Made by a program: the position numbers and the translations under genes. DNA of 64,000 nt from Cheilinus undulatus. Lineage: Eukaryota; Chordata; Actinopteri; Labriformes; Labridae. Under the pieces are notes generated by a model that searched no databases, was not told the origin of the DNA, and worked only from the letters and a program-made list of their open reading frames with translations. The DNA is taken from positions 4,147,632 to 4,211,631 of the forward strand of contig NC_054875.1 in the NCBI RefSeq assembly GCF_018320785.1, given 5' to 3'. Positions 1 to 63,986 of this stretch are shown piece by piece. How positions within the stretch are numbered: the first letter of the stretch is position 1; the number at the start of each line of letters is the position of its first letter.

Positions 1-317
1 TACTCCAACAAAGTGAAAATGCCCCATATCAAAGCACAATATTAATCTGCAAAGAGGAACGAATACTGGCGGTGCTAGCTGCTAATGTTAGCGGGTGTGA
101 CGTGAGCTTGATTTACTCTGTGCTGTTGATTTGACTGTTTTTAAATATTTTCTTCTCTTTAGACCAGTCGGTTATACACAGCTTAAATTAGCATTTAGCC
201 AGAGGGGGAAACAGACGCACAGGAACATCCCTCAGAACTATATCAAAGCAGTAAAATATCCCATACATCAGTGAAGCTGCTGACAAGAAGCAGTCATGTT
301 TAGCTATGACTTCTTAC

Positions 318-3300
318 CTTGGTCCTCTTATAGTCACACAGGAACTCCACCTCATACTCGTTGACGTTGGCTTTGTTCACCCCCAGCTCTTTACAGTAAA
401 GACCCTCAGTACGACAAAGAGCCTCCAGCTCATCCCACGACATCTTACAAGGTACACTGCAATCTGACACACAACATCTGCTTTAAAAAGCTAAAAATGC
501 ACCAAATATAAACCAAACAGCCAGTTTAAACTAACTCTGCTTGATGCTGCTGAAATATGTAAAGCAATAACAGAATACTGATGATACTAGAAAACATTTG
601 TTAAAGAATATATACAACCTGGGCAGGGGTTTTTATACAAATTAATGCATTTTCAAATGAAATAAAGGGAAAGAAAGGCTGCAGTTGTTAAAATAGATGC
701 ATAAGCCATAGCAAACTTGGAATCCTTTGGCAATCCTCCTCCATCATCATCTGACAAACCCTTAATTCCCTGGAAACTAGGGAGAATTTCTCAATACTTC
801 CAGCGAAGCCACTCGCAGGAGTTATGGGCTTGGCACACTGAGTCCTCTAGTTTTGGATGTGATGCAAAGGTTTTTCAGGTCTCTACTTGAGAGACTAGGA
901 AAAAAGCTTTCAGATGTCATGTTTTTTTTAATTACATTTGGTTTGATCTTGTGTGTGAACAGGGAGGGAATCTAACTGCCAACTGGTTTTATACACTGTG
1001 TTGAGCAGAATTGTGGTTAAAACTCAAAACTTTGATCGAAGCTGGCATTTATGCTGTTTGTTTATAGAGACAAAAATGAATTATGACAATATCGTCATCA
1101 GTGTGGACAAAGATATCTCAGCACCATATCCTGTTGATACGTGATTGGTCAATGCAGCTTGGGAGGGTTTTTAAGGGACTTTGCTCTTATTTAAAAATAA
1201 CAGAATACTGTAAGAGTCCACAAATTTAAAGCATCCTCCAAGAAATATGCAGCTTTGCCTTCAGAAGAAGTCAAATATTTAACTTCAGTGATATAATTTA
1301 CATTTATTCTTCTGGTTATTTGTAGGGATGCACGATATTATCAGTAGTATATTGGTATCGGCCGATAATAGCTTAAAAAGTTAATTACCGGTATCGACCG
1401 ATAGTAAAATTTACGCCGATGTGTACGGCCGATAATATGACGTCATAATGAAGCGCACGCGATGACGCCGGACGTGCACAACCAACAACAATAAACAACA
1501 TGTCAGCTGTGTGGGAGAAGTCTGAGGTGTGGGAACAAGACAGCAAAGTAGCTGTTTGCATCGCTTGTAAAGTACATCAGATGCATGTATGAGCTCGACA
1601 ACATGCCTTTAACACCACCAGTTTAATTTTTCATCTAAAAAAACACCAACCTGATGACTATAAGGACTATAAAGAATGGCAAAACTTCGTGCCAGGGAAA
1701 ACTCAGCAGCAGCCTCTACTTAAGTCATTCAACAAAGCTAAAAAAATAGAGCAGTGACCACCCAAAGGTAAGGAGCTGAACAGGAAAATCATTGAATTTA
1801 TAGCTCTTGATAATCAGCCTTTCAGCGTGGTGGAATATAGCAGCTTGTGATGCATTTAAAGCCCCGCTACGTTATACCTAGCAGGCACTTATAGCCTTAC
1901 CTGAACTGCAAAACTTTGTTTCCAGTCACGTAGAGAAGCTCCTCGTTAAAGCTAAACATATTAGCTTCACCACGGATATATAGACATCATCACGTTTAGC
2001 CTCACTGCCTCCGTGGATAGATGAGGATATTACTCTAAAGTCTGTCCTACACTCACAGGAGTGCTCACTCAGCAACTGCAGTAGCAGCCACTTTTGATAA
2101 CATGTTTAGATAGAGATAAAAAGAACGTGCATGTCGTCCTACGTGACATGCGCAAAATATGGCAAAAGCAATGACGGACTTCTGAGTGCCGTCTCCTGTG
2201 CACACTCGAAGGTGCACAAAGGTGTGTCCAGCATTGGAGATGTGGGTGTCACTATGTTGTTATAGCGCTGTTTACAGTGAAATGCCCATTAAACTTGGTT
2301 GCTTAGTTAGTTTGTGCTTTTTAAAGCAGAATCAGGAGAACTACTTTAGTTGAAGTTTTATTTCTGTTCATCTTGAGTCTCAGAAATTTGGAATTATGAT
2401 TAAGCTCTGAACTATAGCTAGATTTTTTTTGCATTGAAGAATCTTTTGTTGTTGTTGTTATTTAAAGCCCTTTGTCAGGAGTATCTCAGGGAGTCATCCT
2501 GCAAACTGGCTGAGTAATAAGGAGAATCAGTCTAAATGTATAAGCTATTTCTTTTTTATACTGTGGAGCTCAGAGTAAGCAGGTTATTTTGCTGTGTCTT
2601 ATTGCCCTCAAAAATGCAGATGACTTTGGCTGTACTGTTAAAAATACATGTAAGCATGTAATACACATGTAACCCAAAGACATTACTGTAAGTTTGTCAT
2701 TTGTGTATGGCTGTATTTGAAAAAAACAAAAACAATATATCCTTCAGTTCTGATAAAAATCAAATGTTTGTCAGTTTGTACAAAAATAGACTACCAATAT
2801 TTAAAAAAAAATGTAGTCCATGATAGAATTGGTGTTTATAACAGTGGAAAAAAATGTAATTAATTAAATATCGGTGTCGGCCAAAATTTGTTTCAAAATA
2901 TCGGCATATCGGATATCGGCAAAAATCCAATACCGTGCATCCCTAGTTATTCGTGTTAAATCTTAATGAGATGATAAATAAGTTCATCTAACCTGCTCTG
3001 ATTTCAAGTGAAAGGTCAAACTCTCGTAGGGCATCTTTCACCAGAGGAAGATCCTTCAGCTCCACCATTCCTGACAAACAACAGAAAATACACAAACATT
3101 GTTTTCAACACTGTAACAAGCTTCCTAGTTTATTCATGTAGAACCCCTATTGACTTTTAGTATCATGAACAAGGAGGATATAACCGTACTCTGTCACAAT
3201 TCAAGAAAGAAACAAGCTCTGCATTGAGAAGAAGTCCAATATTTGACTTTAGTTTATTATTTTTCAAACTTCTTAAATTCTTTGTTTATATCTTAGCTGA

Positions 3301-6300
3301 GTTTATAACCAAGTCTGTCTTACCTGCTTTGACTTCCAGTGACAGGTCAAACTCTTGGAGATCATCTTTGAGCAGCGGAGGATTTTCCAGCTCCACCAGT
3401 CCTGAGAAACGACCAGAAACACCCAAACACTCAGTAGGTTTATGTGCAGGTCGTAAAAGTCAAACTTTTGTGTAAATTTGGCTAAAACAGGACTACTGAG
3501 GTGCATTATAACATGTTAATATGACTGAAATTGTACTTATTCAATATTTTCTTTTTAACTCAGACTATAACTCCTACAATTTATTCTTGCATGTTTGAGG
3601 GCTTGGTATTCTCTGGATGCTCTCAGTCTCCACCCCAGGCTTTGACCTGAGTTGATAAGCATAGATGCTAACCATAGCAGGAGCTGTGTTGTTTGAAATC
3701 CCCATGAGTTTGAGGTATGGTGTTCATGTTCCAAACACAAAGTTTTACCATAAACTAATAGAACCAGTTAGTTGCTTGCCAATGTGTTAGCAAAGTCTAC
3801 AAAAACAGTGTTCAACTGTAGTTTGCCTAAAGGTGCATTATCACCACCTACTGAGGCAGAAATACTTTTGTCGATAAATCGATTCTCCCTTAGAGCATTT
3901 ATACTGGTACAAGGACAGTAGTCCAGTTTAATGGTCTAATCGAGTTATGACTGTAGCTCGACTTAACTGAGATGTAAATGTGCTGATTGTCTCTAACAAG
4001 CTTTGTTAGCCACACTTTGTAAAAATTGTTTTGACCATTAGCTTAGGAATATTTTTCAAACACAGTCCTCATTATAGTAAAATGTGAGGGACCAAACCAA
4101 AGATTCTGTCATTTTAAAACTATTTAAATTAAGGCTGGATAATATATCCATATTGGACATATATTCAAATGGGATACAGCACAAGATATTTAAATCAATA
4201 TAGTTTAAGCTGATGGGTTTTTTAGAAAGAAAAACTGATGTCAGCACTAACAGTAAAAGACTGATTACAGAACTAAAAGCAAAGTTTAGATTAATCAATA
4301 ATATCCTCCCTCTTAATCAAATACTAGTTTGTTTTCTCACCTGGTTTGACTTCAAACGGCACTTCAAACTCTCGGAAAGCATCCTCACACAGAGTGATCT
4401 TCTCCACTTCGATCGCACCTGAGGAACAGAAAATACACCAACGCCATCTTCAAAACACTTTCTCATCTTTAATTTATGTTATGTTTTACATTATTATGGA
4501 TAAGAAATTACATAGACTGATTGTGTAAATTAGGGCTGATGGGATGTATAAAATAATCCAGCTGATACAGATGTTTTCTTCTTTTGGTGTAAGCTTCCTT
4601 CTTTGCCAACAGTCTGTCTCATGTCTGACCATGAAAACACATCAGATTTCTAACAGGGGACTCCCTCTGCCTTTTAAAAATGTCTTATTTGATTCAGCAG
4701 TTCAGTATACAAGATGCATTAAATTAATCTGACATAACTGATGGCTACTAATAGCTATCCATGCTGCGTCCTTTGCTGATGGGCAATGGTGGCAGATACA
4801 GATGCATCTCTGTTAAAAATATTTGCCATTTTGTCCATAGGCTTTATCATTTTTTCAGTTATTACATATTACTATACAAGCAGAAAAAAGGAGGGTGAGT
4901 GCCACATGTGGTCAACATGCCTAAAACATTGTACCCAGGAGCAGGTGCCCTTCTTCTTAAAGTTACAGTACATATGTGTGCTTAATCATCCATTTCTATT
5001 CATTTATTCTTTGCTTTTGAAGTGAAGTGAGCAATAGTGTGCTCTAATCCTGATACCAATACCAATCAAAATCATTGTATATAAAATCTTGCCATAATTG
5101 AACTGCCCTTATATCATCCTTCAGTGAAAAAATGAATTATAAGTTTTGGACAAAATAGCCCAGCCCTAGTTTGGCATACAGTTAACACTCGATCTAGCAT
5201 TTAATAGCAACGTAATTTACTCCTACTTTCCACTTAGTAGAAATACTTTAATCATACGTGAGACAGACCAATAGTTTGGAAGGGCTGTCATTAAAAAAAT
5301 CAGGCAATTTTTTCGGTAAACTGGTTGTAGCGTTCCAGTGCCGGTGTTACGGTTAAATGAGTGGCCGTGTTGACTGGCGACATTTGGCCTAATGCGTCTA
5401 AGGTTGTTCCAACAGATTTGAGTACAGAGCCCTCACGAATGCCCTTTTTACGTTTTATTAATTACAAGTGAATACATATGTGATGACATAACGAACATAT
5501 AACAGAGAAAACTTCTTAACTGTTCGGTACCCGAGGTAACTTCGACAGCTTTAAAAAAATCGGCTAAAGACGTCAGATAACACGATCACAAGTTAAACCG
5601 CTACACCGGTAGTGGACTAAACGGAAAGCTGTATGTAAATGTATGTTTTTTTTCATTCAACAGCCGTCAAAATCTATTTGTCGCTCTAGGCTGATTCAAA
5701 TATTATAAATTTACAAGGAATGGATGGTTGACTACTACAGAAATAATGGTATTTCAGTGCTATTTTTGTAGAATGTCACTGACAACGCGTTCGTAAAATG
5801 GCAACCAAGACCATAAATAGTTCTTAATCTTATAGTCATATAATAACGTAAATAGGTGTTATTTAATAAACAAAATGTTAGTCCAGAAGTATATACTTCC
5901 ATTTATAAGCAGCTGCATGGCGCGTTGAGCTGCGGTTTTGCCGCTTTAACCACGCAGCATGCCGATTATAAAACTCATGGGGGAAAACTAACTTTTAAAT
6001 CAATTATAAAACGCTTGCCAAAATCGATATAATCGATATGAGTAAGACGAGTTCGTCTTCAGCTTTCTTCACCAAAGAAGCTGCATTCAACCATCCGTAA
6101 CTTCATCTCTTTTAAACTCGCTTTCTTAGGAAACACATGATAACACAATACCACCCTGAAACGAACTATTGCGGCTTCGTTAACTCGACGCTAAACAAGC
6201 ATGTATGTTTGAAGTTTCGGAAGAGTTGTCACTTAGATTTAACCAAATGCACGTGTTTATTTAACCTTTAAATCGAATATTTCATAGTTTGTCGTGCTCG

Positions 6301-6327
6301 TGAGTTACCTTTCAAATTTTCCGCCAT
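318..6327 (-). CDS. suv39h1: Histone H3K9 methyltransferase SUV39H1, 5' part (partial gene)
   Basis: SUV39H1 trimethylates histone H3 lysine 9 in heterochromatin. Only the N-terminal coding exons are present; the rest of the chromodomain and the pre-SET, SET and post-SET parts lie beyond the left edge. Coding exons in transcript order are 6309-6327 (MAENLK plus one base), 4341-4418, 3324-3401, 2993-3070 and 318-463. All have GT/AG borders and the frame stays open throughout. The start MAENLK is the same as in mammalian SUV39H1. Exon 318-463 encodes 49 residues, including CSVPCK, a W-x-E-L-x-x-L-C segment and YEVEFLCDYKR, the start of the chromodomain (known family pattern CSVCCK ... FEVEYLCDYKK). 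The three 78-nt exons between are not part of the family layout I know and are listed separately. The fish paralog (suv39h1a or b) is not resolved. Confidence 0.88.
1323..2945 (+). mobile_element. Degraded hAT transposon with BED-finger remnant
   Basis: The terminal inverted repeats read TAGGGATGCACGATAT on the left and, inverted, TAGGGATGCACGGTAT on the right. The element is flanked by 8-bp direct repeats GTTATTTG (1315-1322) and GTTATTCG (2946-2953), one mismatch apart, as expected for the hAT superfamily. From 1500 a broken reading frame resembles a BED-type zinc finger (SAVWEKSEVWEQDSKVAVC, then IACK). Further on a fragment resembles the hAT transposase block KIIEFIALDNQPFSVVE. Stops and frameshifts make it inactive. 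It sits in the intron before the suv39h1 chromodomain exon. Confidence 0.82.
2993..3070 (-). CDS. suv39h1: suv39h1 repeat exon C (78 nt, phase 1/1)
   Basis: The acceptor CAG is at 3071-3073 and the donor is GTTAGA at 2987-2992, slightly off consensus. It encodes 26 residues beginning GMVELKDLP and ending EFDLSLEIRA. It is followed by a 2.5-kb intron carrying a hAT transposon, then by the pre-chromodomain exon at 318-463. Confidence 0.8.
3324..3401 (-). CDS. suv39h1: suv39h1 repeat exon B (78 nt, phase 1/1)
   Basis: The acceptor CAG is at 3402-3404 and the GTAAG donor at 3319-3323. It encodes 26 residues beginning GLVELENPP and ending EFDLSLEVKA. It matches repeat C at 17 of 26 positions, so these two appear to be the youngest duplication. 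Skipping it leaves the frame intact. Confidence 0.82.
4341..4418 (-). CDS. suv39h1: suv39h1 repeat exon A (78 nt, phase 1/1)
   Basis: This exon has a CAG acceptor at 4419-4421 and a GTGAG donor at 4336-4340. It encodes 26 residues beginning GAIEVEKI and ending FEVPFEVKP. Residues shared with repeats B and C are Gly1, Glu4, Leu10, Asp13, Glu17, Phe18 and Glu23. It is the most diverged of the three: about 10 of 26 residues match B. It is acidic, with alternating hydrophobic positions. No function is recognised. Confidence 0.8.
4530..5170. mobile_element. Probable non-autonomous inverted-repeat element
   Basis: The left end reads ATTAGGGCTGATGG. The right end, inverted, reads ACTAGGGCTGGGCT, a short imperfect inverted repeat typical of hAT-like small fish elements. 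The interior is AT-rich with no coding potential. A related sequence begins near 4129 (AAGGCTGGATAATATA), so borders are uncertain. It lies in the first intron of suv39h1. Confidence 0.4.
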
Positions 6328-6445
6328 GTTTCCCCCTCAGCCGCCAAAATAAGAGGAGCCACGGCGCAGGGAGGATTGTGACGCAGAAAATTCGGAGGCG
6401 GCTTCTGATTGGATAAGCGCTAGCTATCAGGTCTCTGATTGGCTC
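6328..6445 (-). promoter_or_regulatory. suv39h1: suv39h1 proximal promoter with two CCAAT boxes
   Basis: Upstream of the MAENLK start on the minus strand are two inverted CCAAT motifs, seen as ATTGG on the plus strand at 6408-6412 and 6438-6442, 30 bp apart. The surrounding sequence is richer in CpG than its neighbours. Paired CCAAT boxes about three helical turns apart are typical NF-Y promoters of housekeeping and cell-cycle genes. The transcription start is not determined. Confidence 0.5.
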
Positions 6446-7016
6446 AGCAGTGGTTGACCGGAAAACATGAACGTCGAAGGAAGCTAGTTGAATTCAGAAA
6501 GAAGTTACGAAAAAAACGTAGAAGTGTAGTACTTCTGCCGCTTGTTGTGGGTAGAGAACAGTAAAAAAAAAAATGTATGAAAACTGACCAAAAATCCCCC
6601 ATTTTAAAATAATTTTTATTTAACAGTCAGTCTCATTTACGTCTTTTAAATTACACCACTCCCATTTATCGACGTTAATTGTTTAGGATGCGCTTGTATC
6701 AGTGTTTGAGAGAACTGCCTACCAGCTGTTAACTAGACTGACCCCTTTAAAATACAAGCAGGTTAAAGGGATGGACATTTATCTCCATTTATTCAGTAAT
6801 AAAGCTTCCAGAAAACTGTAGGTCTGCTTAAACTCTTATTTATCTTATATCCAGGCTGAAGGCTCATGTATTCAGTGACTTATTTAATTATCTGGGTAAT
6901 TAATCTTTACAGCAATTTGGACTGTACATCCACTTAATCTTTTTTACATTTGTGCTTAAGTCTTTTTGTATCTCAGCATCTGCTCTGCTGTTATGATGTT
7001 GTCTTAAACCTATAAT
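6446..7016. other. Spacer between suv39h1 and repeats, nothing recognised
   Basis: AT-rich sequence with a short A-tract near 6560. I see no exon, RNA gene or clear repeat. Confidence 0.5.
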
Positions 7017-8537
7017 ACAACCCAAATTCCAAAAACATTGTGATGCTGTTTTGCAAATACAAAGAGAATGCTATGACTTGCATATTTCATTATACTCATC
7101 TTTTATGCACAGTATAACATAAACAACATATCTGACCTTAAAACTGAAACATAATAGAATTCGATGGCAGCAACACATCTCAAAAAAGTCAGGACAGGGC
7201 TATGTTTACCATTGTAGCATCCCAACAGTCTGTAAACATCTGGGAAGTGAGGAGACCAGTTGGAGTTTTGAAAGAGGAATGTTGTCCCATTCTTATCTGA
7301 TGTAGGATTCTAGCTGCTCCACAGTCCCGGGTCTTCCTTGTATAATTCTCCAAATGTATTCTGTTGGTGAAAGGTCTGGACTGCAGGCAGGCCAGTTTGG
7401 GACCTGGACTCTTCTTCTGTGAAGCCATGCTGTTGTGATGGACGTGGTATGTGGTTTAGCATTGTCTAGCTGGAATAGTCAAGGCCTTCCCTGACAGAGA
7501 TGTATGGATGGGAGCATATGTTGCTCTGAAACCTCTATTTACTTTTTAGCATTAATAATTAATAATTAAAAGCATTTTTAATTTTTAGAAGCAGTTTTTG
7601 CAGATTGATGATCCTCTGCCAGTCTTTACTTCTGATAGCCTCTGTTCCTCTAAAATGCTCTTTTTATTTCCAGTCATGTTACTGACTTGTTACCAATTAA
7701 TCCAAAATGTTCTGTCATTAGTTTTTCACTGGTGACACTTACTTTTCTAGCCTTTTGTTGCCCTGTCTCTGCTTTCTTCAGATGTGCTGCTGCCATCAAA
7801 TCAATATTAGTTAATTACCTCCGCCAAGGAGGTTATGTGATCGGGTGGGTTTGTTCATTTGTTTGTTAGCAACACAACTCAAAAAGTCATGGACAGATTT
7901 TGATACAATTTTCAGGAAATGTCAGAAATGGCAAAAGGAAGAACTGATTAGATTTTAGGAGTGATCCAGATCACCGTCTGGATCCAGGAATTTTTTTAAG
8001 GATTCTGTGCTATTGGGAGATAGGGCTAATGGTGGAGGTCTGCGCTGTTACCACTTTACACCAGGAGATTGCGGACATGAGTAACTTATTCAAAGTTTTG
8101 GAGTTTATAGAGAGACGATTCGGAGCGTAACAGAGAGAAAGACAGCAAATTGTAGCGAGAATACTCACAATGCTGGGAGAAATAGAGGAATATTCACCCT
8201 CTGCCATGACTTCCACACATAGCAAAGCCAATGCTTTGCCTCACCATGTCTCCACCCCACCGGGGAGGGAGTAATCGGCGAATTAGATTTTCGGAGTCAT
8301 CCGGATCACTGTCTGGATCCAGGAATGTTTTTAAAGGATTCTTCACTATTGGGAGATAGGGCTGATGGCAGAGGTCTGCGCTCTCTGAGTGCTTTTCTAG
8401 TATTTTTCATGAAATGGTAAAATGTCTCAGTTTCAACATCTGATGTGTTGTTTATGTTCTATTGTGAATAAAATTGCATCCTGTTTTTTTTTTTTTTAAT
8501 TCTACACAGCGCCTCAACATTTTTGGAATTGGGATTG
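7017..8537. mobile_element. Composite non-autonomous element with nested repeat
   Basis: The ends form an imperfect inverted repeat: ACAACCCAAATTCCAAAAAC on the left and, inverted, ACAATCCCAATTCCAAAAAT on the right. A second repeat beginning ACCTCCGCCAAGGAGG (about 7816) is nested inside. Two ~100-bp direct repeats, 7940-8040 and 8285-8385, both containing GTCTGGATCCAGGAAT, flank about 240 bp of different sequence. No intact transposase gene is visible. It lies between suv39h1 and slc51a. Confidence 0.6.
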
Positions 8538-9187
8538 TGAATAAGAGCACCTTGTCTTCTGGTACCCTGTTGGTTGGTGTGGGATGGGTTGGGGTAGGGG
8601 GTTGATATTTAAATATTCAAAATTGTTAAAAATGTAAAATGGACAGGCTGATATATGTCTGTGCTGATTTCAACAATAAAATTGTCACAAAATAGGAATT
8701 CCTCAATTTCATGCATTTTCTCATAAGGTGCCATGGAAAATGTGATTAAAACTTCATATTTGTGTGCTTTGGCAAGTAAAAAAAGATGCTACTAACTTCA
8801 GACAACCTCTAAGTATGTAATGAGTGTGCAAGCTGTCAATGTTTGGGGGGTTAAATATTTTCCTTGATTTTCTTGCACAAAAAAAAATAACATTTCACAA
8901 ATACAGTTCCAGGGCTCTTACACTGAAAAAGTTCATGTAGCAAAACTTTTCATTTTCAGCAGGTGCTTGGTGCAGTAATGAATAAGAAACTAAAAACATG
9001 AGGTGTAAACATTATTAAGTGACTTTGCATAATGGTGAGGATGAGTATTGAAACTTTGTCTAAGTTTTCTTGATAAATATGAGTTTTTTTTAGGGTTTTG
9101 AGATGGTGGGTCTTTGCCCTGACACATCCAAGCCAGTGGCAGAAACATTAGTTCATATTGGTCTTTTTTTATTTCTTCCATGGATGA
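8538..9187. other. slc51a 3' flank / 3' UTR region
   Basis: AT-rich sequence below the slc51a stop, with a short G-rich patch near 8580-8600. A motif reading AATAAA on the minus strand lies at 9168-9173 but is only about 15 nt past the stop, so the real polyadenylation site is probably farther. Nothing else recognised. Confidence 0.4.
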
Positions 9188-12100
9188 TCAAACCACAGTG
9201 ACATCTTTAGATGCTTGATAATTAATGTCAGCTCTGACAGTGATGTGGGTCGCATCTTCACCAGGTTCATCTACAGATTTAAGCTCTACCACTTCTTTTC
9301 TGCGGGACGTCTGTGGTCTCACCCGAGGAAAGGGGAAACCGTCCAGAGGTGTGTGCTCTATCCTGCACAGACTATCCTCTATGTGACTGAAGCTCGGATT
9401 TGAGGTGCCAGCGAGGCAGCGACCGGGCCAAAGTTCCTCTGATGGTCGGCCCGGCTCTGGATGAGTCCTCTGAACATCGTCTGTTTGGACGGCCGTCTCC
9501 GTCGTACTGACCAGCCTCTCCACATCCTCTACGACGCTGGGTTCTACCTTACGGAAAGTGTGGCGGGCGTACAGGCCGATGCAGAACATCTCCACAATCA
9601 CACAGTAGTGGTAGATCACTGAAATTCAACAAAGAACACAATAATACTCATGATTACTACACCTTTCTTGTCATAATCTTGTTTTGCATCATTGCACACC
9701 CTTATATATTTTGTCTTTGTGTCATAGTTATAAGTGCACTTGATTTGTGCCGTTTTTTGACTTACACTGTGACCTGGTCAGTACAGAGAAAGGCGGCATG
9801 CAGGGGATCACCTCCAAAGCTCCCATAGTCTCCAAGATGCCGCTCTGCAGGCCACACAGCACCAACACCACGATGATGCAGATGAACTTGGCTCTCAGTC
9901 CGTAGCCAGGCAAAGCGCTCTTAGTGGCTTTGTAGAAGAGAAGGTGGCCGTAAAAGGACACAAAGGTGGATACGCAAATGATGCCATTAACATAAAGGTT
10001 TGGGTCGACTGAATCCACCTGGAGAACAATAAGAAAGTGGTTCTGTTATTTTATCCTTTAATTTAGTCGGCTGAAATAATCCTTTCATATTTCTCTGAGT
10101 TTATAAAGGTTTGACAGGACAGCTGAAGTCATCTGCTTGCAGCTCTTTACACTCTGAGGGCTTCAGTTTGCTTTAAATCACCTTTGTTTAGTTTCATTTG
10201 TATCTCTGGTTCTGATTCATCTCATTTGCACGCATAAGTGTTTAAAACACAAGCTGTTATAGCAAAAACAGTTTACTATGAGTGTAATCTTCCAGGCTGC
10301 ATCCTGCCGTCTTCTTGATCTCTCAGCATCTATGGATTTTGTTTTGTGACAAACTCATCAACATGAATATAACTCAGGCTTTCAGGGCATCATGCCACGT
10401 AAACATTCATATGTTTGCACTTGGCAAGTACTTCACTGGAAGCATACTGAGGCTTTTGGAGATGCTGCAGTTGCTTGTTCCCACGTAAACAGCTCCAAAG
10501 ACTTCTTATCTATTCAAAAAGCATTAATAAGAACTTTTAAGTTTTATGAAGTTAAACTATAAATATAAGCAATAGAGATGCACCAGTTGTAAAAATCAGG
10601 GTAGATACTGATGTTTCAGACAACTATTTAACTGACTGCCACTTCCAGATCAGGTCAGGTATGTGAACATGTGCCGGTCTGGTATTTCACTGCATCAACT
10701 TTGATGGCCATTGTCCATGCCCCAGCTCTCCAGGTATCCTGGGGTCCAGCGTCTGGACTTGCCCACAGTGTCCTGGGCATCCAGTATGTGGTGAGCTGGA
10801 TCAGGCCAGGGAAAGTGCGCCAGGTGCCCTTAAAAGCGCAGCTGCTGTTCCTGCATCAAGCAGCTGACCCTTCCCATCTTCGCTCTCCTGATAGATCAGC
10901 ATTAGACTCAAGGCCATGCCAATGGTTAGTGTCGTAGTACTTGAGAATGGTTTTGGTCTTAAGACTAGTCTCAAGACCATATTTTTAATGGCTAGGTCTT
11001 GTCTTGGACTGAAGAGCATTTTTACTCGGTCTTGTCTCAGTCTGGGACTGGCCGGTTGAGACCAGCACTGATCTGCTATTCTTTGACTTCATTAATGTGA
11101 TAATAAGGAGGAGCACTAGCTAAAACAACAAATAGCTACACCTGCAAAAACTCGGACATCAGTCCGTCTTATTTCTAGTCAGAAATCCCTCTGGCATTAG
11201 GCCTCATTCACGTGACAAATCTAGATAAACATCTAATTTCCAGTTAGCTAAAATAATTCCAAACTTGTCAGTGGCATTTAAATACATACAATGATTTATT
11301 TTTTACAAGAAGTTAGTTGAACAAATTTGTTAAGATTTGAGATTTTTGTATGTTGTGCTTGGAAAGAGTTGCAGACACCTTGTTTTATCTGTCAAATTTA
11401 TTTTAAAGAAAACTAAAATGAAAGAAAGAAGGCTCTTCAACTGTTCAACCTTGTCATGATTTTTGAAATGATTTTTGTGGTCTTGGTCTTATCTCGGTCT
11501 TGACCCCTAAAAGTCTTGGTCTTTTCTTGGTCTTGGTGAACTCTGGTCTCAGGCAAGTCTTGGTCTCAGATAGTGTGGTCTTGACGACAACACTACCAAT
11601 GATATCCAAAGATGTACCAAAGAGAAGATGCCAGTCTAGCTGGCGCCTCTGGCCATCAGTCAACGTCCAGGCTTCACAAGAGTATAGTAAGACCGGGAGG
11701 ACTACGCACCAAGAGACTCTGACTTTCGTGCGCATGCTCAGAAATCGGGAACGCTACACTGTCTTCCTCAGTGAACCCATCGCCCCATGCATGAGTCCAA
11801 TACCAGTGCTGATGCTTTTTTCAGTACTTCTCTTTAAATCTACCCCAATTCTAACATTTTCTCTCATGTTTGACCATGACAATAGATCAGAGTTTGTCCA
11901 TAGACATCTGGATTGCAGAAGGCTGATGTCTGTCAAAAGGGCTGATTTTGACTAATAGTGATGTTAAACTGATGCATCTCTGCATCCTTAATAAATGATT
12001 TCAAACAAACATTTTCAGAGCAAGCATTTACTAAATGATATCTTCTGACTAATTTTTGAAAATACTGAAAAGAAAAGATAGTTTGGACTGTTTAAATATC

Positions 12101-13393
12101 TTAAAACATGTTGGCTAAACACCAGATGAGCCAAAGAATTTCCCTTCAACGAGATCTAACTGTGGAAAAGGAGCTTAGGGAACCAGCTTGGGAGAGTAAG
12201 CACATATTAAGGTAAATAAATGACTCACATCACCGTAGTCGTACTGTTCATCCGTCCACAGAACCAAAGTGACAAAGAACAAAATACTGCGGACCACAGA
12301 GAGCTGCAGCACGGCAGCCATCATCCAACCACGGCTGCTGCTGAACACAAGAACAAACAAAAACTGCATATAAGAAGTGGATGTAGCCACCAAGCATAAC
12401 AACTGTTTGTGGACTTTGGATTTGAAGTAGGGCTGTCAAACAATTAAAGATTTCCGTCACAGCTAGTCTCAGTATTTCTGTAGTTAACTGTAATTAATCT
12501 TGTCTGTCTTAATCAGGCTAGTGTTTTGTCTCTACCTGTTGATGGACACCATTGGGAGGCAGCAGCAGCAGCAACAAGGGAACGGATCAGGAGAAACCTG
12601 CTGACCAGAGAGAGCCGAGAGCATACGTGCTTTCCCACCGAAGAAGTCTGTGATCAGCCCCATGAATTTCAGTAGAGTGATGGAGTGATACCTGCACAGA
12701 TGTACAACATCAGACAACAGCAGCAGTAACAAAAGTGATTATTAAAGAAAGACTTGTTAACTCACAGTGAGGCGATGAAGTTACACAGAGAGGAGGAGCG
12801 AGGAATGTACAGCGCTATGAGGGAGGTGGTGACAAACACCTGAGGATGATAAAAACATCATGAGGACTCTTTCTGGATTTGTTATTTGAATGTATTTTCT
12901 CAGAGTAGGAGCTGAATGAAGGTGCTGTTGTTACCGGGTACATCCCTAGTATCCACAGGTAGAGCTGTTTCCGTCTGGATGAGCGGATGTGACGCAGGAA
13001 GAAGCCCACCTCCTCCAGAAACACCCCCAGGATGATGACAGCCAGGCCGGCCGGAATGAGGAAGAGCCACAGCTCATCTTTGATGACTGACAGAAGACAC
13101 AGACAGACAGAAGAAATTCACACTACGCATCTTTAGCAGTCCAGCACAGCTGTGGAGCTCCTCAATACACTTATTTAAGTTCCTTGTTAGTGGGAGTGAT
13201 TCTGTATATTAGCTTTCTACAGCTAGTTTTCTTTTCTGAACAAAAACATGCAGACCTACTTGTCTATAAATCTGATTCAGATCAAAAGTTTTACCTCTAA
13301 TCTAACACTGATAAAAAGTCTCTTACCATTAAAAAACTGTGACGACAGCGGGATCTCAGGTCCAATCCAGCTGCAGTTTGTTGTTCTTCCCAT
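9188..13393 (-). CDS. slc51a: Organic solute transporter subunit alpha (SLC51A/OSTalpha)
   Basis: OSTalpha is a seven-pass basolateral membrane protein that, with OSTbeta (SLC51B), moves bile acids and steroid conjugates. Coding exons in transcript order are 13327-13393, 12935-13086, 12766-12839, 12536-12691, 12229-12340, 9766-10018 and 9188-9618. Phases join without a break and give 414 aa. Family features visible are a short N-terminus with an Asn-Cys-Ser glycosylation sequon at residue 6, the segment LYIPRSSSLCNFIASLYHSI, the cysteine run PFPCCCCCCLP, and the ending GALEVIPCMPPFSVLTRSQ of the last hydrophobic block. The last exon adds a polar tail of about 140 residues. From memory human OSTalpha is about 340 aa, so this tail is long. 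A non-coding first exon near 13512 upward is likely, since the ATG exon has an acceptor just before it. Confidence 0.9.
10660..11780 (-). mobile_element. LINE reverse-transcriptase fragment, interrupted
   Basis: The minus-strand translation around 11630-11735 includes VVLPVLLYSCEAWTL followed by TDGQRRQLD. This resembles the C-terminal region after the reverse-transcriptase core in fish non-LTR retrotransposons, which typically read VLLYGCETWTL. The fragment continues on the far side of the insertion at 10925-11593. It is broken and non-functional. The clade is not certain. Confidence 0.6.
10925..11593. mobile_element. Small inverted-repeat element inside the LINE fragment
   Basis: It is flanked by near-identical 8-bp sequences TGCCAATG (10917-10924) and TACCAATG (11594-11601), and removing it rejoins the LINE sequence. 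The ends are related in inverted orientation (GTGTCGTAGTACTTGAG versus GTGTTGTCGTCAAGACC). The interior holds many CTTGGTCT/AAGACCAA repeats on both sides. It is hAT-like and non-autonomous. Confidence 0.6.
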
Positions 13394-13599
13394 CCTATCT
13401 GTAATGTGAATTCACGCTTTGTCCACCTGTCGCTCAGCAAACACAGAAAATGGAGATTAATCACTGTCTGATACAAAAACAGATGTTGGAATGGCCAGAG
13501 GTGCCACACTAACCTGGATTCTCCTGGGTCCGAGAGGATTTAGAGCCATTTTCTTCTGCCAGGTCGTCTCTGCGTTGATCTGAACACTTCCTGTCTGAC

Positions 13600-14747
13600 T
13601 GGAACATTAATGATCAACTAGAGACAGGTAACAGGACAGGGGGGAGGTCCAAGTCCATCCTGAGCATGGCTTTAAGTTCACCTGAGGAGATATTCTTTTG
13701 AAAACACACCTTTCCAGGTTAAATAAAGCCTTAGTCACTTATCTAAGTGGAAATTGGTCCCAGATGTTTACTCAATCCCCCGAAATTCTTGAGAGGATAT
13801 TTGTTTTTAAAAGCTTTTTCAGGTCTTAAGAAGAGTCTGATGTTCACCAAAGATGGAAGGATAAAATATTAATGTGCTAGATTAAGAATAGCACAATAAC
13901 ATTGAATATTTTTATCCTATTTAGCAACATTTCTATCAATTTAACACTTTTACTTAATCAAATATGTGAAAATACATGACTTAAATACAGTCAAGTAGTA
14001 ATTTTACCATGTAGTGTTTGATCTTAGCACATGTAGGTTCATCGCAACAAAGTAAGTGTTACGTGTTAGGTTTTAGAATAAAAAAATATAACTGAATCTT
14101 CCATTTTGGAGCAGTTGGGACTACTTCAGAACTTACTTTCAAAAAATGTCAAAGTATTGTGATTGCTTTTATAATTTACTTTAATTAGGACGTTACTGAT
14201 ATCTTGCTTCTTCCGCTCTTACTTCTGTGTTTGCACACTGCCCTGCACTCTCATGCCCTTACATGGGCATAAACGAGGCATTTCTCTATTCTTAGTGGGA
14301 GAAATTTGCACATTTGTCCAGTTTGTAAACTCCTGGCATTCATCAACTAAAGAACACATGGGAGAACAGTTTTGCCGTTGAAGAACAACATATGAAAAAC
14401 CTTGGGAAGATTATGGTGAATGAGGCATATTAAATCTAACAACAACAAGCAGGTAGCTGATAAAGGAGCTGGTCTACTGCAAAATTTAGAATGAGCTGAA
14501 GTAAGTGGCTTTTAAAGCAAACAAGTCAATAACTTTCGTGTTTTGCCTCCAAGTCCGAGGCCATCGTTCTCGGCTGTGAAACGGTGGATTGCTCTCTTTG
14601 GGCGTTGGGGTTTAGTGATAGAATAGCTTATGTATAAAGATGGCAGAGATAGATCAGCCAGACATCCCTACAGCTTTCTCTGGTATCATAAAGGCAAAGG
14701 AAATGAGTTAAGGAGGAACAATCTCTGCTGAAATATTTGGAAGTCGC
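13600..14747. other. slc51a-porcn spacer
   Basis: A mostly AT-rich spacer between the slc51a 5' end and the porcn 3' end. I see no exons, RNA genes or well-formed repeats. Confidence 0.45.
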
Positions 14748-15263
14748 ATATTATGCAAAATACACTTTTTCAGACTTTTAACAAAAATATGTTCCCCTGG
14801 CCTGTCCACAATCCCCAGAAAAACCAATTTCCTTCCCCCTCTCTTTCTCCACCTTTTGGAAAATGTGTGCTGAAACAAGCTGTTCTCAGATTATCCCCTC
14901 ATGATGTCATGTGGGGAGTTAGCTCCACCCCCAGGTCCAGTTGGCCCTCCCTGCTTGGAAGAAAGTTCCACCCTCCTCTCCTGATCTTCCTCCCTGCTGC
15001 CAGCTGAGAAGAGGATCAGGAGAACAACATCCATTGAGCCACATCCATTTCCTGAGAGGGGCCAAGTCAGACAGCTCATTATCATTTACAGCAACAGACA
15101 CAGAAACAGCTCATTCTTAGCAGGGCTGAAACAGAGGGGTTTTTAGATATGCAAAAATCCAATACTGGAATGATTTCCAGCAACAGACTTCACAGGCATG
15201 CTTTGGGGACCTCTGAGACCAATATAAACTTGTCTTTAAAGGGGTAACATTTGTGACCTTTAA
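14748..15263 (-). mobile_element. ~500-bp TTAAAGG inverted-repeat element, copy 1
   Basis: This is one of three related copies in the window (also 18914-19423 and 31382-31865), inverted relative to the others. Shared parts are the sequence around CCTGGCCTGTCCACAATCC, the block CCTCATGATGTCATGTGGGG, and the end GACAAGTTTATATTGGTCTC (seen inverted here). The end with GGGGACATATT is missing, so this copy is slightly truncated. No coding capacity. Confidence 0.65.
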
Positions 15264-16176
15264 CTGGATCCCCTGTCGTATCCATTGGACCTTTTGGCTG
15301 AAAATGCGTTGATATGAAGACTTGATCCATGGGTTGTTATTAAATGCATTCATGCAATGTTTCTCAGTAAACTTAAAGATTTTGAAGGGCTATTTCAGAC
15401 TATATTAACAATATCTCCCCTCCAAAATAAAATAAGGCAAATTAACAAGGAGTTTGTGTGAAATTGATGTGTAAGTGTTTAAGTGCATTGCAGGATTAAA
15501 TAAATAATCACATTAATGAATAAATTGTATATGTTGGTGTGTTTACATACTGCCAAGAAAGAAAGAACAATGATCAGACTCAGGCTGAGTCAGGCTCTAT
15601 CTCAGCTGTTTTTAATAGAAAACAATAGAAAAACAAAATAGCAGCAGTAGAAAAATACACAGTTGTAACAAAAGGACATATATACTTACAGAAATGTACC
15701 TTTTAAAACCCTATAATAATAATGTACCTAGATATTATATTTCAAACTGAAATGTGTTGGACGTGTACAACATTGCAGCTTCATTGTGGAGAAATACAGG
15801 TAACCTCTTCTCTCTCCAATATACTGCATACAGGTAAAATAAAACATTTTATTGCCTTTGTGGGTCCATCACTAACTCTTACATGCAGGATTTTCAGTTC
15901 AGTCAAATCAGTGGAGTGATCGCTTGCAGAAGCTTACTTAAAATGTCCTGAAATGGTCCCAAAATAACCAGGGTTCGTACAGGAAACCACAGGTGAGGTG
16001 CCACTATGTGTCCCATCCAAACAGTGAGAGAAGGAGTGTTTTTACCTCCACGTTCACCTGCAAAGAAGCAGGCTCAGTCCTCCATCTTTCCAGCAGCTTC
16101 TTCTTTACCATCAGTTAAAAAGATCCTGATATTTATTGGCACAAACCCTCTTCTTTAGTAAACTTCTCTAATACTC
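15264..16176 (-). other. porcn: porcn 3' UTR / downstream region
   Basis: Non-coding sequence following the porcn stop codon (16177-16179) in the minus-strand sense. A polyadenylation signal candidate lies at 15848-15853. The AT-rich part beyond it, toward 15264, shows nothing recognisable. Confidence 0.45.
15848..15853 (-). terminator. porcn: Candidate polyadenylation signal of porcn
   Basis: Reads AATAAA on the minus strand, about 325 bp past the porcn stop codon. It is the first well-placed hexamer I noticed; use is not proven. Confidence 0.35.
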
Positions 16177-19100
16177 TCACTGGATTAGTCTGTAGAAAAC
16201 CCAGCAGGCGAACACGACCCAGTGGCTCGCCCAGTTCAGTTCAGACCACCTCTGGATGGTGTGGATCGCTGCGTACCCCTGCAAACGTGAGACACATGTA
16301 AGCAAACATAAGAGTTTTCAAGTGCCATCTATGGAGAATCCAACAATACTAGAGTCGTGTAAAATGTATTTCCTAAATTTTATGATAGTTCTTTCCAAGA
16401 ACTGTTAGTTCACGATTTAACAAGGGAGGAGGCAATTAGGTGAGGTGTATTATAAATAAAAAAGCAGTGTCATTGTGCTCCTACCTCTTCTACTTCTTGC
16501 TCATCAACTCCAGGATCAAACATGGAGCCCAGGTAGGTCAGGTGGAAGATGGCCAAGAGGCTAAAGACCAGGTTCAGCAGCATCACCCAGTAATCCTGCG
16601 CACAAGGAAAACGAAACACTTTAAACAGCAACACAACATACAAGATTAAAACATGGTAAATGTGCTTTTAGTTTATTATCCTGTCAGTTTTGTTTGATAA
16701 TGTCTGTTTAGTCCAGGTAGACTGCAGGGTTAAATCAAGTTCTGAAGAATCTGAATGTCTTTAGTTGTGATTTCCGAGCTTTGCTCTTTGAATCAAACAG
16801 GTTTATAGAGCAGCAGTTGTACCTTCTTGTGCTGATGGCTGCAGTCAGCAGCGCAGGGCCGGGAGAGGACACAGGCGCTGAAGATGGATGCAAGTTTTTG
16901 TCTCAGAACTGAGGATGAAGGAAGATAAAACACCAGTACAGCATAAGAGACAGAGTGGAGAACAATTACAAACTCAAGAAATACAATCTGGTGTTTTTTT
17001 GCACAGCTGAAATAGAAAGTTTATTTCAATTCAGTGCTTTAATTCAGGGTTCCCAACCTGTTTTCCTTAGGGCCGCCCCTACTTGAAAAGCAAAGCCCCT
17101 CAGGACCCCCTCGGAAAAATTCAAATCAATTTTAATTGTTTTTATTGACAAAATCTGAACATAATAGGCCCACATACTCCTGTTCTTGACAAAAATCAAT
17201 GTTTAAACTTTCCATTATTACTACAGGGCAACTCTTGAAAAAACAATAAAGAGGACTTAGTCATTTTTCAATAAAACCTCTAAATTCTCAAGGTAAAAAA
17301 GTTGTTAATTTACAGGAAAAAAGTAGACATTTTGTCACTTTGAAAGTTGTAATGTAAGTGAACCAAAATTTAGTGTTTTTGAGATTATAGAGTCAAAAAT
17401 CCAACCAATATTTTCAGTTTGGTTTCTTATAGATTTTTGGTAAAACACTATTTTACATTGCATTGAAGGATTTTAAAATTTGACATTTTTTTAGTTTCTA
17501 TTGTCAAAATTAAAGACTTCCTTAGCTCAGAAACTGCAATATTGTCTTGTAAATTTCTTACTTTTTAAACTTTGAAACCCAGAGTTTTTTCTGGAAAATA
17601 AACAACTTTAAAATCTTATTTTCCCCCTGAAAAACATTTTTGCCTAAAAAATTACAGATTCTCTCCATTTTTAAAAATCTTTTACATTGGCCTTAAATCA
17701 TCATGTTTCTAATCATGATTCTTACTAAATATATTTGTACATCTAATTTTGACAGCCTCAGAGTAGACAGGGTCCTGCACCCCCCTGAAATCTCTGGCGC
17801 CCCCCCCCCCCCCCCAGGGGTGCCTGGACCCCAGGTTGGGAACCAATGCCTTAATTAGTATTTTTAGAGCATTTTCATACTAGACAATCTGTCACATACC
17901 CAAGCATGCTTGTCCCCAAAATCAAGTTTGTTTGACAGCTGTGAGCGCTCTAGTATGGTTCCTTAGCGCTGGTCCAGATGGAGGAGGGCCTCAGCATGGT
18001 ATGGTAATTATTTTTATGTCTATAAATCTTCTTGGGTGTTCATCATCTTGTATAACGTCTATGTTGAGCTGGTCCACTGGACCTTACAGAACACTTACTG
18101 ACTGTTTTATGTCTGATGCCCCACAGACTTACTCTGAATTAGGAAAATCTGCAAGGAGCTTTCATGCTTCAAATATGTAGAATCACACTGTTAAGATCAA
18201 AACTCTCATTTCTCAGAGGCAGTGATTTATAAATCTTGAATCATTTAATCTCTGTGTTTTCTTCTTGTATTTTTCTATTTGGTTTAAATGTGAATTGTTT
18301 GTGTATCAACATCACTGGAAGTGAGGGAAACCCTGCTGGTTTTCAAGGCTTGAATTAAGGTTGATGATGTTTGCTCATGCATGCTAATGTGCCTATCACA
18401 GATGTTACGTCTAATCCGTTTAGCTGTTCCTTCAGCAGTTCTTTAAAACAATGGAGAGTATCAAAGAGTGACAACAAGTGAGTAAAGTTACTGTCATGTT
18501 GTCTGTGAATTTCTATATTGTGCTGACTGTCAGACAGCGTGTCTTATAAACTGTGAATGCCATGTTATAGCATGATGATATATCCGTGTGCACAGACTGG
18601 TGGGGTACTGAGGAGGGGGACAGATTTAAGTGTGAGCGTGCCTCCATACCAAGCAGAATAATAACTCTTACCATGTTCTACATATGTGATGAATCCCAAA
18701 GACAGCAAAACTGCTCCAAGGTGGAAACTCAGACCCTGAAGAAAGTCCAGATAATATCTGTTATTTAAAAGCAATTGTTAAAGCGGAAGGACTTCCAAAA
18801 AACTAAACGTTAATAATTCAGTTACTGTCCAGGTTATTTGCAAACAACGTCCCTGGAAAAAAGAACTGCAGTCAAAATTCAAAATCTAAGCTAGTCTGAC
18901 ATAATATAAATCCCTTAAAGGGGACATATTTTACCCTTGTAAGACAAGTTTATATCCATCTCAGAGGTCCCCAAAACATGCCTGTGAAGTCTGTTACTGA
19001 AAAAACACTCTAGTATTGGATTTTTGCATGTCTAAAAACCCCTCTGTTTCAGCCCTGCTCAGAACAAGCTGTTTTTGTGTCTGTGGCTTTAAATGCTGTC

Positions 19101-22100
19101 TGACTCCTACTCTCAGATCAGAGTCAACAGCTATCCAGCATCTCAGCTGGCAGCTGAGATGAAGATCAGGAGAAGAGGGCGGAACTTCTTCTCAAGCAGG
19201 GAGGGCCAACCAAACCTGGGGGCGGGGCTAACTCCCCACATGAGGTCATGAGGGTATAATCTGAGAACAGCTTGTTCCAGCAGACATTTTCTGAAAGGCG
19301 GAGAAAAGAGGGTGGAAGGAAATTGGTTTTTCTGGTACTTGAGGGGATTGTGGACAGGCCAGGGGCACATATTTATGTTAGAAAAGCCTAAAAAAGTGAT
19401 TTTTGCATAATATGTCCCCTTAAATAACATGAGAGTGCCTTAAATTTAGACATTTTTTTAAGAGGCGTTGTTTGCAAGTAACTTGGATAGTCATTGTTTT
19501 GCTATTTTGACCTCCGTCCCCTTATCCTTTAAAGCACTTGATCCTTGTCGCACTTTTTAATACATTTTTGGCCCTGTGCAGAACTTGCATTATTCTATCT
19601 AAAACTCAAAATCTGTCTTTGAAACAGTTATTGTTTAGAGCAGTGTTAATTTTGTCGACTAAAACTATGACGTTATGACAGACTTTTTTCCATGACAAAA
19701 ACTAGATAAAGACTTACCAACAATAGATCTATGATGACTAAAACTGACAAAAACTAAGTTAAGTTTTCGTCAAGATGACTAAAACTAGACTAAAATGTTA
19801 TGTAGTTTCCGTCGGACATTCGAAATCTGTGATATTTGTCCACTGTGGGTAAATCTGTCAAAAAAACAACGCGTCTGTATCTATTCTGCCTCTCAGCTGT
19901 AGAAAGCAGGGACCCCATATTTAGCAGAGTGCATAGAACACGCTACCATGATTTGGTACCAGATTTAAGCAAGAGATTAAATGCTTGGACTAAAAGTAAA
20001 GACTAAAATGTGAGGACTTTTTATGGACTAAAACTAGACTAAAATGTTTTGAGTTTTCATCGACTAAAACTAGACTAAAACTAAAAAGGAAAGAAATAAC
20101 TAAAATGTGACTAGAACTAAAATGCATTTCATCTAAAGACTAAAACTAAAATTAAAAATAGCTGCCAAAATTAACACTGGTTTAGAGTATATTAAAATGC
20201 CGTTCATTACTGTCAAAGGCTGGTAAAAGGAAGTATGCATGGTGTTACTAACATGCAGTAAGGCGCTGGCTGTGTACGTCACCAGGATGGCTGGAAAAGT
20301 CCCCAGTTTCATCGCATTTTTGAAAACGTCTGAAGAAATAAAAGGACAACACAATGTTAGATCTCAGCATACTTGTTCATACAAATGCTGTTTTTGATGC
20401 AACATTCATGGATAAGACATATGAGACAGACTGAATATACTGTACATAGATAGCTATAGTCATACTCCAAGCAGACAAAGAATAAAGGGAATCAGATCTA
20501 ACAGGCTGATAGCAACAGTGATCTTCTTTTCTGTAGCTTTTTATAGTTGGTTAATATTTGCCAACTTTACAGCCTTCAAATTACCTGCTGATTAAATTTG
20601 TTATAAATAACTGTGACCAAAAGATGAAGTAAAAAATGGCTTCTTGAAAGCTATGTGCTGAGATATGCTTGTTTCTTAAGCCATATTTAGTGATACTGGA
20701 GTTTTGTGTGGATACACATGAGGTTTGCACTTACAAGTTTTCAGCCAGCGGGACATGGGGATGTTCCAGGACGTCACCACCAACACCATGGAGCGAGGCA
20801 TTTCAACACTGAGAGGCTTTACAACGCTCATATCCCTAAACATTAAAAACATGGAGAAACTGTATGAAGAAAACAAGTTTAAAGGCATTTATTCTTTAAT
20901 CTAGTCTTTGGTTTTTGGAGATTTGATGACTATTCCCGAGCTTTGATTGTGGTAAAAAACATTTAAAAAAATATGAGAATAGTTTTCTGTAAAAATAAGA
21001 TCATTGCTAAAGCTTTTGCCACCTTTACAGATGCATTACAAACATGACATCTCTCTCTAATCAGAGGAGCTAAGCCTTGATAAAACTCACCAATTGATGT
21101 TGTCTTTGTCCTCAGTGAAACCGGCTCCAGCCAGCATGCTGGTGCCTTCACTCAGGTGACCCACGAAGTAGTTACTGAAGTGGAAGGACACGGCGTTTTC
21201 ATAAGCATGCATCCACCTGACAGACACAGAAAACACACATCAGACACACACATGGGTAACCCTTTAAAATCTTCTGTGTACATGTCCTCTCTGATGCAGG
21301 AGGTCTGTGATCTGAATGATAATGTGGCTTACTTCTGTGTGAACGGGCTTCCCTCGATGGGGATGAACAGCGTGAAGAGGTAGGGGGCGATGCAGGTGGA
21401 GACCAGCAGACAGATCTGACTCTTCAGAAGGCTAAAAGAGCAGCTCTGCAGCCACGCCCAGCTCTAAAGGAGCAAATAACGTGACATCCAACACTACGAT
21501 AAGGACATAAACAAGAAGATGTAAGCAGAGGAAGCAGGAAGCATGAACTCCTCACCAGTTTTCTGCCCTCTGCTGCGTTCTTATAACTGGTAAAGCTGAT
21601 CCAAGGGCCGAACGCGACAGAACCCACGAAGAGGATGTAACCGAGGAACTCAGCAGGGGAGGGCAGAGCGGCCACCACCCCTCTGTCCAGGTCAAAGGCC
21701 AGAGAGATGGCCTTCATCGCAACCACCATCTGAGAGCCTGACACACATCAACACATCTACAACATCAATGTCTTAACAGAAAAAAAAAAACAGATATAGA
21801 CCCAGATCACTATTGTGAAAATTAAACAGGCTGATTTTCTTGGTTTCTAAAAAGTGAAGGCAGGATTCTTGTCACTTAGACTTAAAAAAAAAAAAAAAAA
21901 AAGTGGATACTTTAATTTCTTTCAGAACAGAAAATTCAAATAACATGAAAGCATTAAGAAGCTGTTGTTGCTATAACTTTTGATTTGAACTGACCTTTAT
22001 TTTAAAAATGTCTTTTCAGATACAGTATCCCCTGGTACCTCAAAGGCCTTAAAATTTTTATTACACTATGCAGAATTCTTCTAAGACACCAGGAAAATCT

Positions 22101-33446: not shown

Positions 33447-50960
<17,514 letters not shown>

Positions 50961-62800: not shown

Positions 62801-63986
62801 GTGAGGAGGCAGATGAAGAAGATGAGGAGGAGGAGGATGGGGAGGAGGTGGAGGCCAGAACGGGCGCGGCCTCCTCTGGGAGAAGGCGAGCTGTGACTTC
62901 TGGCTCTTCGTTGGCGCTGGTGGAGGCAGGACTGGGGCTGGGGCTTGGAGTGGGTGTTGGAGTGGGTGTTGGAGTGGGTGTCGGAGTGGGAATGGGAGCT
63001 GGTAATGTGACCGGCTCTGGAGTGGGTGCAGGCTTTTCCTCTATCGTGGTGGTCTCAGCTGGGAGCTCCACGCCACACTCGGCCTGCAGCACCACCTCAC
63101 CTTGCACCACTGTGTTGTCGGACATGGGCGAGCCCATGGAGACTGCAGAGATGTCCAGAGCAGCGCTGTCTTCTGTGGTTTCTGTTGCCTGTATGGCTGG
63201 AGGAGTGGCCTTACAGAGGGTTCTGCGGGCCCGGCGGCGCAGATCAGCTCGCGTGCGTCTCCTCATCCGCCCGTCTCTCCTCCTCCGACCAACGCTGCGT
63301 CTCTTCGGTGTTGCAACTACAGCTACGTCACTTTCCAGCACCGTTGCTGCAACTTCACTGGCTTCACTGGCAGTCAGTTTAAGGGACTCCTCCTTAGTCA
63401 GACCAGACCTAAAGGTACACAAAACACAGTTTAGATTTTCATGAATTATCTGCATGTCCCAGTGACATGGCGAATACTTTAGTGGTTCTCAACTGGTCTA
63501 GCGTCAGAACCCAACACCTCCTGGATGAGAAGCTGTGAACCATATTAGTCTAACATCCAAATATTTTTATGAAAATGATGTATTTTGACTTGAGTTGGAA
63601 CAAAAGACACATCATAAAGAGATGGAGACATTTCCTTCAAAATAAAAGCCAGTTATAGACTTTTGCTACACATTTTTATCCAGGCATTCATCCACAACCC
63701 ACTGAAGAGGACTACCTGATCCACCCGGTCTACATTATAAATGAGACAGCAGGCACATGGAAGTAACAAAGTACAAGTACATGTCTTTAGATCAACGTAA
63801 AAGTGAACCACAAATCACTGACAGAACCTGATATGTCCTTTGTGTGAGTGGTGAAATCATGAAGTAAGTGGGGGTCTTACTTTTGCCCGTGGTACTCCTC
63901 AAAGAATTTCTCCTTCCATGCTTCAACCTTCTTCTCTTTCTCCATTTCCTGTCGGAATCGCACCTGCATCTCATGGGTGAACTCAC
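56804..63986 (-). CDS. asxl1: ASXL1-like Polycomb cofactor, C-terminal exons (partial gene)
   Basis: ASXL proteins are nuclear cofactors: their DEUBAD/ASXH region activates the H2A-K119 deubiquitinase BAP1, and a C-terminal atypical PHD finger ends the protein. Coding exons in transcript order are 63881-63986, 62418-63408, 60763-62013 and 56804-58135, with matching phases, giving about 1226 residues. The N-terminal HARE-HTH part and most of the DEUBAD lie past the right edge. Features in order: end of the ASXH/DEUBAD region ([19 protein letters not shown], then SGLTKEES), an Arg-rich block with [10 protein letters not shown], a Pro-Thr repeat, Ser-rich runs, EEPKVPPIR joined to [31 protein letters not shown], a Gly run, [18 protein letters not shown], and the PHD finger ([17 protein letters not shown]) ending LVVR. 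IKPPWV and SLPLEKVLP point to ASXL1 rather than ASXL2 or ASXL3. Confidence 0.88.
58136..60762 (-). other. asxl1: asxl1 intron splitting the large 3' coding region
   Basis: GT donor at 60761-60762 and CAG acceptor at 58136-58138, phase 0, between ...HSRPHSQ and DHQPLPIRD. It contains an inverted-repeat element (58889-59620). The remainder is AT-rich and not recognised. Confidence 0.6.
58889..59620. mobile_element. Inverted-repeat element in asxl1 intron
   Basis: The left end reads AAGCTGGGCATACACTGTGC and the right end, inverted, reads AAGCCTGGCATACTCTGCAA; both continue into AATTT. The interior is richer in CpG than the flanks. The element looks like a ~730-bp non-autonomous fish DNA transposon. 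No coding capacity. Confidence 0.6.

Follow-up and report, generated by a model that had tools for sequence, protein, structure and literature searches.

The locus described here raises the question of how a gene presumed to be suv39h1 in the labrid fish Cheilinus undulatus came to contain three exons of equal length between its first six codons and the exon leading into its chromodomain, and where these exons came from. The sequence under study is a 64-kb stretch of contig NC_054875.1 (the window, positions 4,147,632 to 4,211,631, with all coordinates below counted from its first letter), in which the exons were reconstructed by script on the minus strand of 1-7500. By profile and pairwise comparison, the three exons, designated A, B and C, are shown to be homologous to one piece of the N-terminal chorein region of VPS13. 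In the reading that we favor, with a probability of about 0.72, an exon of a VPS13 gene, most likely vps13d, was captured in intron 1 of suv39h1, tripled and spliced in.

Organization of the locus

The coding part of the first exon (6309..6327, minus strand) encodes MAENLK and the first base of the next codon, which places its donor in phase 1; the exon ends in ATGGCGGAAAATTTGAAAG, followed by gtaact. The next suv39h1 exon (318..463, minus strand) encodes DCSVPCKMSWDELEALC...YEVEFLCDYKRTK, begins with (G)AT TGC AGT GTA CCT TGT AAG (DCSVPCK) and ends at the chromodomain start. The window stops in the intron after this exon, past the first chromodomain residues, and the chromodomain body and the SET domain would lie beyond it. 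Between the two exons are exon A (4341..4418), which encodes GAIEVEKITLCEDAFREFEVPFEVKP, exon B (3324..3401), which encodes GLVELENPPLLKDDLQEFDLSLEVKA, and exon C (2993..3070), which encodes GMVELKDLPLVKDALREFDLSLEIRA, all on the minus strand. Each is 78 nt long and of phase 1/1, with ag before it, gt after it and both borders after the first base of a codon. The coordinates, lengths, AG/GT borders and phases agree exactly with a sequence-only reading made earlier of this DNA, and the rebuilt exons bear out its placement of the three exons between the MAENLK and CSVPCK exons. The residues that it had listed as invariant (G1, E4, L10, D13, E17, F18 and E23) and the identity that it had counted between B and C (17 of 26 residues) are also exact.

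The MAENLK and CSVPCK exons match a provisional human SUV39H1 sequence, to which 31 of 55 residues are identical. In the PDB, 11 residues weakly match SUV39H1 (3mts, E value 0.53), and SUV39H1 is absent from the PDB search results obtained with the 55 residues. The designation of the host gene as suv39h1 rests on the provisional human sequence and the weak PDB match.

The splice sites on the minus strand of 1-7500 were ranked with simple, approximate matrices. Among 433 GT, the donors of A, B and C rank 2, 3 and 9 and that of the first exon ranks 6; among 472 AG, the acceptors of A, B and C rank 5, 1 and 2. In the whole window, phase 1/1 is open in 61 AG-78-GT stretches of the minus strand and in 68 of the plus strand, and exons A, B and C are the only such candidates on either strand above both splice-site thresholds, which were chosen after these exons had been seen. 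Each of the eight possible combinations of exons gives a reading frame with no stop as far as the end of the CSVPCK exon, as had been anticipated in the claim that any subset could be skipped in frame, and optional in-frame use of the three exons is possible. Together, the splice sites and the uninterrupted frames suggest splicing of A-C between MAENLK and CSVPCK.

Homology to the N-terminal region of VPS13

In hmmscan searches, the 133-residue spliced product matches the Pfam family VPS13_N (PF12624) in two stretches with an E value of 2.1e-8 and 32.9 bits, and the match rises to 35.3 bits (E value 3.9e-9) when the CSVPCK exon is dropped except for its first codon; the CSVPCK exon scanned alone has no Pfam match. 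Exon A alone matches positions 33-59 of the profile (E value 0.005) and exon C alone matches positions 33-57 (E value 0.018), while the corresponding 27 residues of VPS13A and of a provisional VPS13D sequence (provisional VPS13D below) also fall exactly on positions 33-59. The profile match is significant and consistent in register, as read from A and C, and its best stretch covers 32 of the 1317 positions.

A check that does not involve the provisional sequence was made with a profile of VPS13C, VPS13A and Chaetomium VPS13, built on their sequences in the PDB. The product scores 32.5 bits against this profile (E value 1.8e-8 among 5001 sequences), and the best of 5000 shuffles reaches 8.7. 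When A, B and C are compared ungapped with the same three proteins under BLOSUM62, none of 20000 shuffles reaches the observed score in eight of the nine comparisons, and 6 of 20000 do so in the ninth, that of B with Chaetomium VPS13.

The window was searched by tblastn with the N-terminal 69-78 residues of four proteins, provisional VPS13D, VPS13C, VPS13A and Chaetomium VPS13. Solved human VPS13C places A, B and C on top, with E values of 0.001, 0.001 and 0.022 and the next at 1.0, and VPS13A places A and C on top (6.7e-4 and 0.022, next 0.11). With provisional VPS13D, the E values are 1.4e-7 for C, 9.2e-7 for B and 1.3e-6 for A, followed by 0.94. No significant fourth copy or other VPS13 N-terminal part is found in the window, the lowest E value outside A-C being 0.11.

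Some other database matches were set aside as chance: those of the three-unit profile to CheW and CaBP1 in the PDB (E value 0.91 and above), that of the 133 spliced residues to MRT4 in the PDB (E value 0.17), and a single NCBIfam match under its cut-off.

Identity of the donor gene

The identities of A, B and C, out of 26 residues, are 9, 8 and 8 to human VPS13A, 9, 10 and 9 to human VPS13C, and 14, 17 and 15 to provisional VPS13D. Exon A thus shares more residues with provisional VPS13D (14) than with B (10) or with C (9), exon B shares 17 with provisional VPS13D and 17 with C, and exon C shares 17 with B and 15 with provisional VPS13D. That A is nearest to VPS13D, and B equally near to VPS13D and C, fits a VPS13D-like ancestor of the units, and the donor paralogue would most likely be vps13d. 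The units and the host intron are all of phase 1, which is the arrangement of class 1-1 exon shuffling, where a symmetric exon enters a host intron of the same phase. The exon borders of VPS13D were not found among the literature matches listed; a 78-nt class 1-1 exon is predicted in this gene.

Duplication history and constraint

The duplicated unit B (3202..3429, minus strand) comprises the exon and intron sequence on either side of it, and is homologous to unit C at 3098-2948 continued at 1324-1239. The alignment of the two covers approximately 230 nt, beginning 28 nt upstream of the exon and running more than 100 nt into the intron. It leaves out 1325-2947 on the C side, a stretch that is essentially a hAT-like element. 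Because B and C share their intron flanks, they were copied as DNA, by tandem duplication. The flanks of exon A show weaker similarity to those of both B and C, and DNA-level tandem duplication is the most likely mode of copying for the set as a whole. The most likely order is a separation of A from B/C, a later duplication giving B and C, and then insertion of the hAT-like element.

This element (1323..2945, minus strand, 1623 bp) lies in the intron after exon C and splits the duplicated intron sequence. It has the ends TAGGGATGCACG...CGTGCATCCCTA, which form 12-bp terminal inverted repeats, and 8-bp flanks, CGAATAAC and CAAATAAC, that are alike at 7 of 8 positions; the name hAT is a tentative one, given for the form of these ends.

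Indels between B and C occur in the intron only. The ratios of nonsynonymous to synonymous substitution rates (dN/dS) by the NG86 method are 0.50 for A/B, 0.61 for A/C and 0.36 for B/C, and the YN00 method, for B/C only, gives 0.160/0.433. Modest coding constraint on A-C is likely rather than proven.

In the favored history, an exon-sized piece of a VPS13-family gene would have been captured in phase 1 within the phase-1 intron 1 of suv39h1. It would then have been duplicated as DNA to three copies, and splicing of these copies between MAENLK and CSVPCK would add 26, 52 or 78 residues to the protein.

Evaluation of alternative explanations

A number of observations weigh against this history. 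The VPS13_N match lies under the Pfam gathering score of 80, which is set for the 1317-position model, and the product is not filed as a VPS13 protein. Exon B scanned alone has no Pfam match and is unlisted when solved VPS13A is used to search the window, Chaetomium VPS13 lists only exon C in that search (E value 0.38), and VPS13 is absent from the PDB matches listed for the three-unit profile. The VPS13D letters are provisional, being validated only as a VPS13 N-terminus (E value 1.1e-35) and not as VPS13D. The borders of VPS13A fit only in part, which makes VPS13A an imperfect donor model. Its 5' border at c.100/101, in phase 1 in the homologous Gly34, is a presumed one that was not found among the literature matches listed or in the papers examined for it. 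As far as excerpts of the sources go, human VPS13A exon 3 has 43 bp and follows an acceptor at c.145-2 (PMC12411190), and intron 3 lies just before c.188 (PMC3280254). Human VPS13A has an intron after c.144, inside the homologous segment, and its 3' border at c.187/188, though likewise in phase 1, falls by our count 9 nt further downstream than the equivalent place. In the host gene, the CSVPCK exon is preceded at 463 by a weak acceptor (rank 199 of 472), and no other acceptor near 463 that keeps the CSVPCK frame was seen by eye. As for the lineage specificity of the insertion, in an excerpted table from 2006 suv39h1 has 4 introns in zebrafish 1a, 5 in zebrafish 1b, 4 each in medaka, Tetraodon and Takifugu, and 5 in human (PMC1435931). 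These teleost counts are lower than the number that three extra exons would need; according to the same excerpt, the medaka, Tetraodon and Takifugu genes are without transcript evidence and their introns come partly from similarity gaps, so extra exons could be missed there. No description of a suv39h1-VPS13 chimera is present among the matches listed from the literature on SUV39H1/VPS13 exon shuffling, teleost suv39h1a/b, RBG/VPS13D/chorein and SUV39H1 itself.

Further points, most of which also weigh against the favored history, speak for A-C being VPS13-derived relics, skipped or rarely used, with a main transcript that joins MAENLK directly to CSVPCK. The exons are known here from genomic DNA alone, C has the weakest donor among the three exons, and B and C diverge to a similar extent in the exon (0.205, 16 of 78 sites) and in the intron (0.248, 34 of 137 ungapped sites). 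In neutral simulations of 5000 runs each for C/B, C/A and B/A, 3175, 2516 and 2263 copies stay open, respectively, and these open copies often reach the observed identity (1264, 1827 and 1477) and sometimes the observed similarity score (124, 58 and 290). However, frame, length and good splice sites are kept in all three copies, dN/dS is below 1 in all three pairs, and every copy has kept its likeness to provisional VPS13D; we assign the relic explanation a minor yet real share of the probability. The sequence-only reading had proposed a lineage-specific exon birth by tandem duplication, under which the likeness to VPS13 would be convergence in a short acidic strand motif derived from the local intron. 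The duplication in this proposal holds, on the B/C intron flanks and more weakly on those of A, and the shortness of the units and the failure of B to match Pfam by itself would agree with a local origin, whereas the likeness to VPS13 speaks against it: two single units share the profile register, none of 5000 shuffles comes near the profile score, and VPS13C and provisional VPS13D place exactly A, B and C first in 64 kb. Because the units match the same VPS13 N-terminal piece, exon capture followed by duplication explains more than local birth, which we consider very unlikely. That A-C form part of a different chimeric transcript, for instance that of a partial vps13 gene embedded here, is more improbable still; the VPS13 homology of the exons would be expected in that case, but the search with 69-78 N-terminal residues reveals no significant neighboring VPS13 parts, and the phase fits suv39h1 on both sides.

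Other features of the window

Exons of an Ostalpha-type solute transporter are present at 9728-13117 (minus strand), with a Solute_trans_a match of E value 1.2e-12 on 9728-10045 and one of 0.0067, below the cut-off, on 12815-13117 (minus strand). An MBOAT-like exon at 21424-21747 (minus strand; E value 8.9e-5, 22.3 bits, below the cut-off of 27) presumably resembles porcupine (PORCN), a neighbor of SUV39H1 on the human X. MYT1-type exons (PF08474, E values 5.9e-27 and 3.8e-17) lie at 42963-44172 (plus strand), and an open frame with long Glu runs and no Pfam match at 36716-38059 (plus strand) may belong to the same gene. At 56804-58171 (minus strand), an Asx-type PHD (PF13922, E value 4.3e-22) closes a long open frame. 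No Pfam family matches the open frame at 62322-63488; this frame and that at 60505-62049 look like parts of an ASXL gene. A tRNA scan of the whole window and an Rfam scan of 1-20000 found none.

Comparison with known systems and predicted function

A comparison with VPS13, and notably VPS13D, reveals a common 26-residue segment at positions 33-59 of VPS13_N; the suv39h1 gene differs in carrying this piece only, three times, without the N-terminal helix or the remainder of the groove, and in that the host encodes a nuclear enzyme. With SUV39H1/Su(var)3-9, in the provisional human sequence, the gene shares the MAENLK and CSVPCK exons and the chromodomain start, whereas the window gene would have 78 extra residues after residue 6. 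In the insect Su(var)3-9/eIF2gamma fusion, as excerpted, an intron joins a Su(var)3-9 gene with one of unrelated function (PMC1435931). There, the methyltransferase exon lies inside an intron of the other gene, whereas here a foreign exon lies inside the methyltransferase gene, in three copies.

The matched VPS13_N segment is the start of the lipid-carrying beta-groove, or chorein bridge, in VPS13. A bridge-like lipid transfer protein is defined, in the portion of the source consulted, by an N-terminal helix and a multi-strand beta-groove (PMC7613979), and no other VPS13 N-terminal piece was found in the window. Since the captured piece comes without the helix and most of the groove, it would not be expected to transfer lipid. 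The three units have a net charge of -11 and would form a short acidic beta-meander before the HP1- and chromatin-binding N-terminus. According to excerpts, mammalian Suv39h1 binds HP1 and chromatin through its residues 1-41, which full pericentric H3K9me3 requires, and this mark returns very poorly in cells that receive a form lacking 1-41 (PMC5538823); the RNA affinity of the chromodomain is 16-fold higher once residues 1-41 are added (PMC5538822). The insertion point is after residue 6, with most of residues 1-41 downstream. We infer that A-C would act as an acidic N-terminal spacer or adaptor and not in lipid transfer, an optional extension that would weaken or redirect chromatin anchoring.

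A more specific proposal, which we put forward tentatively and regard as rather doubtful, is that a shuffled, triplicated vps13d exon is under selection as an alternatively spliced module that sets HP1-mediated heterochromatin anchoring or links a partner of the VPS13 N-terminus. On the favored history in general, the locus would exemplify exon shuffling in a vertebrate, with one gene encoding a lipid-transfer protein and the other a chromatin enzyme, and the foreign, possibly splice-optional module would constitute a natural experiment on the N-terminal tuning of heterochromatin.

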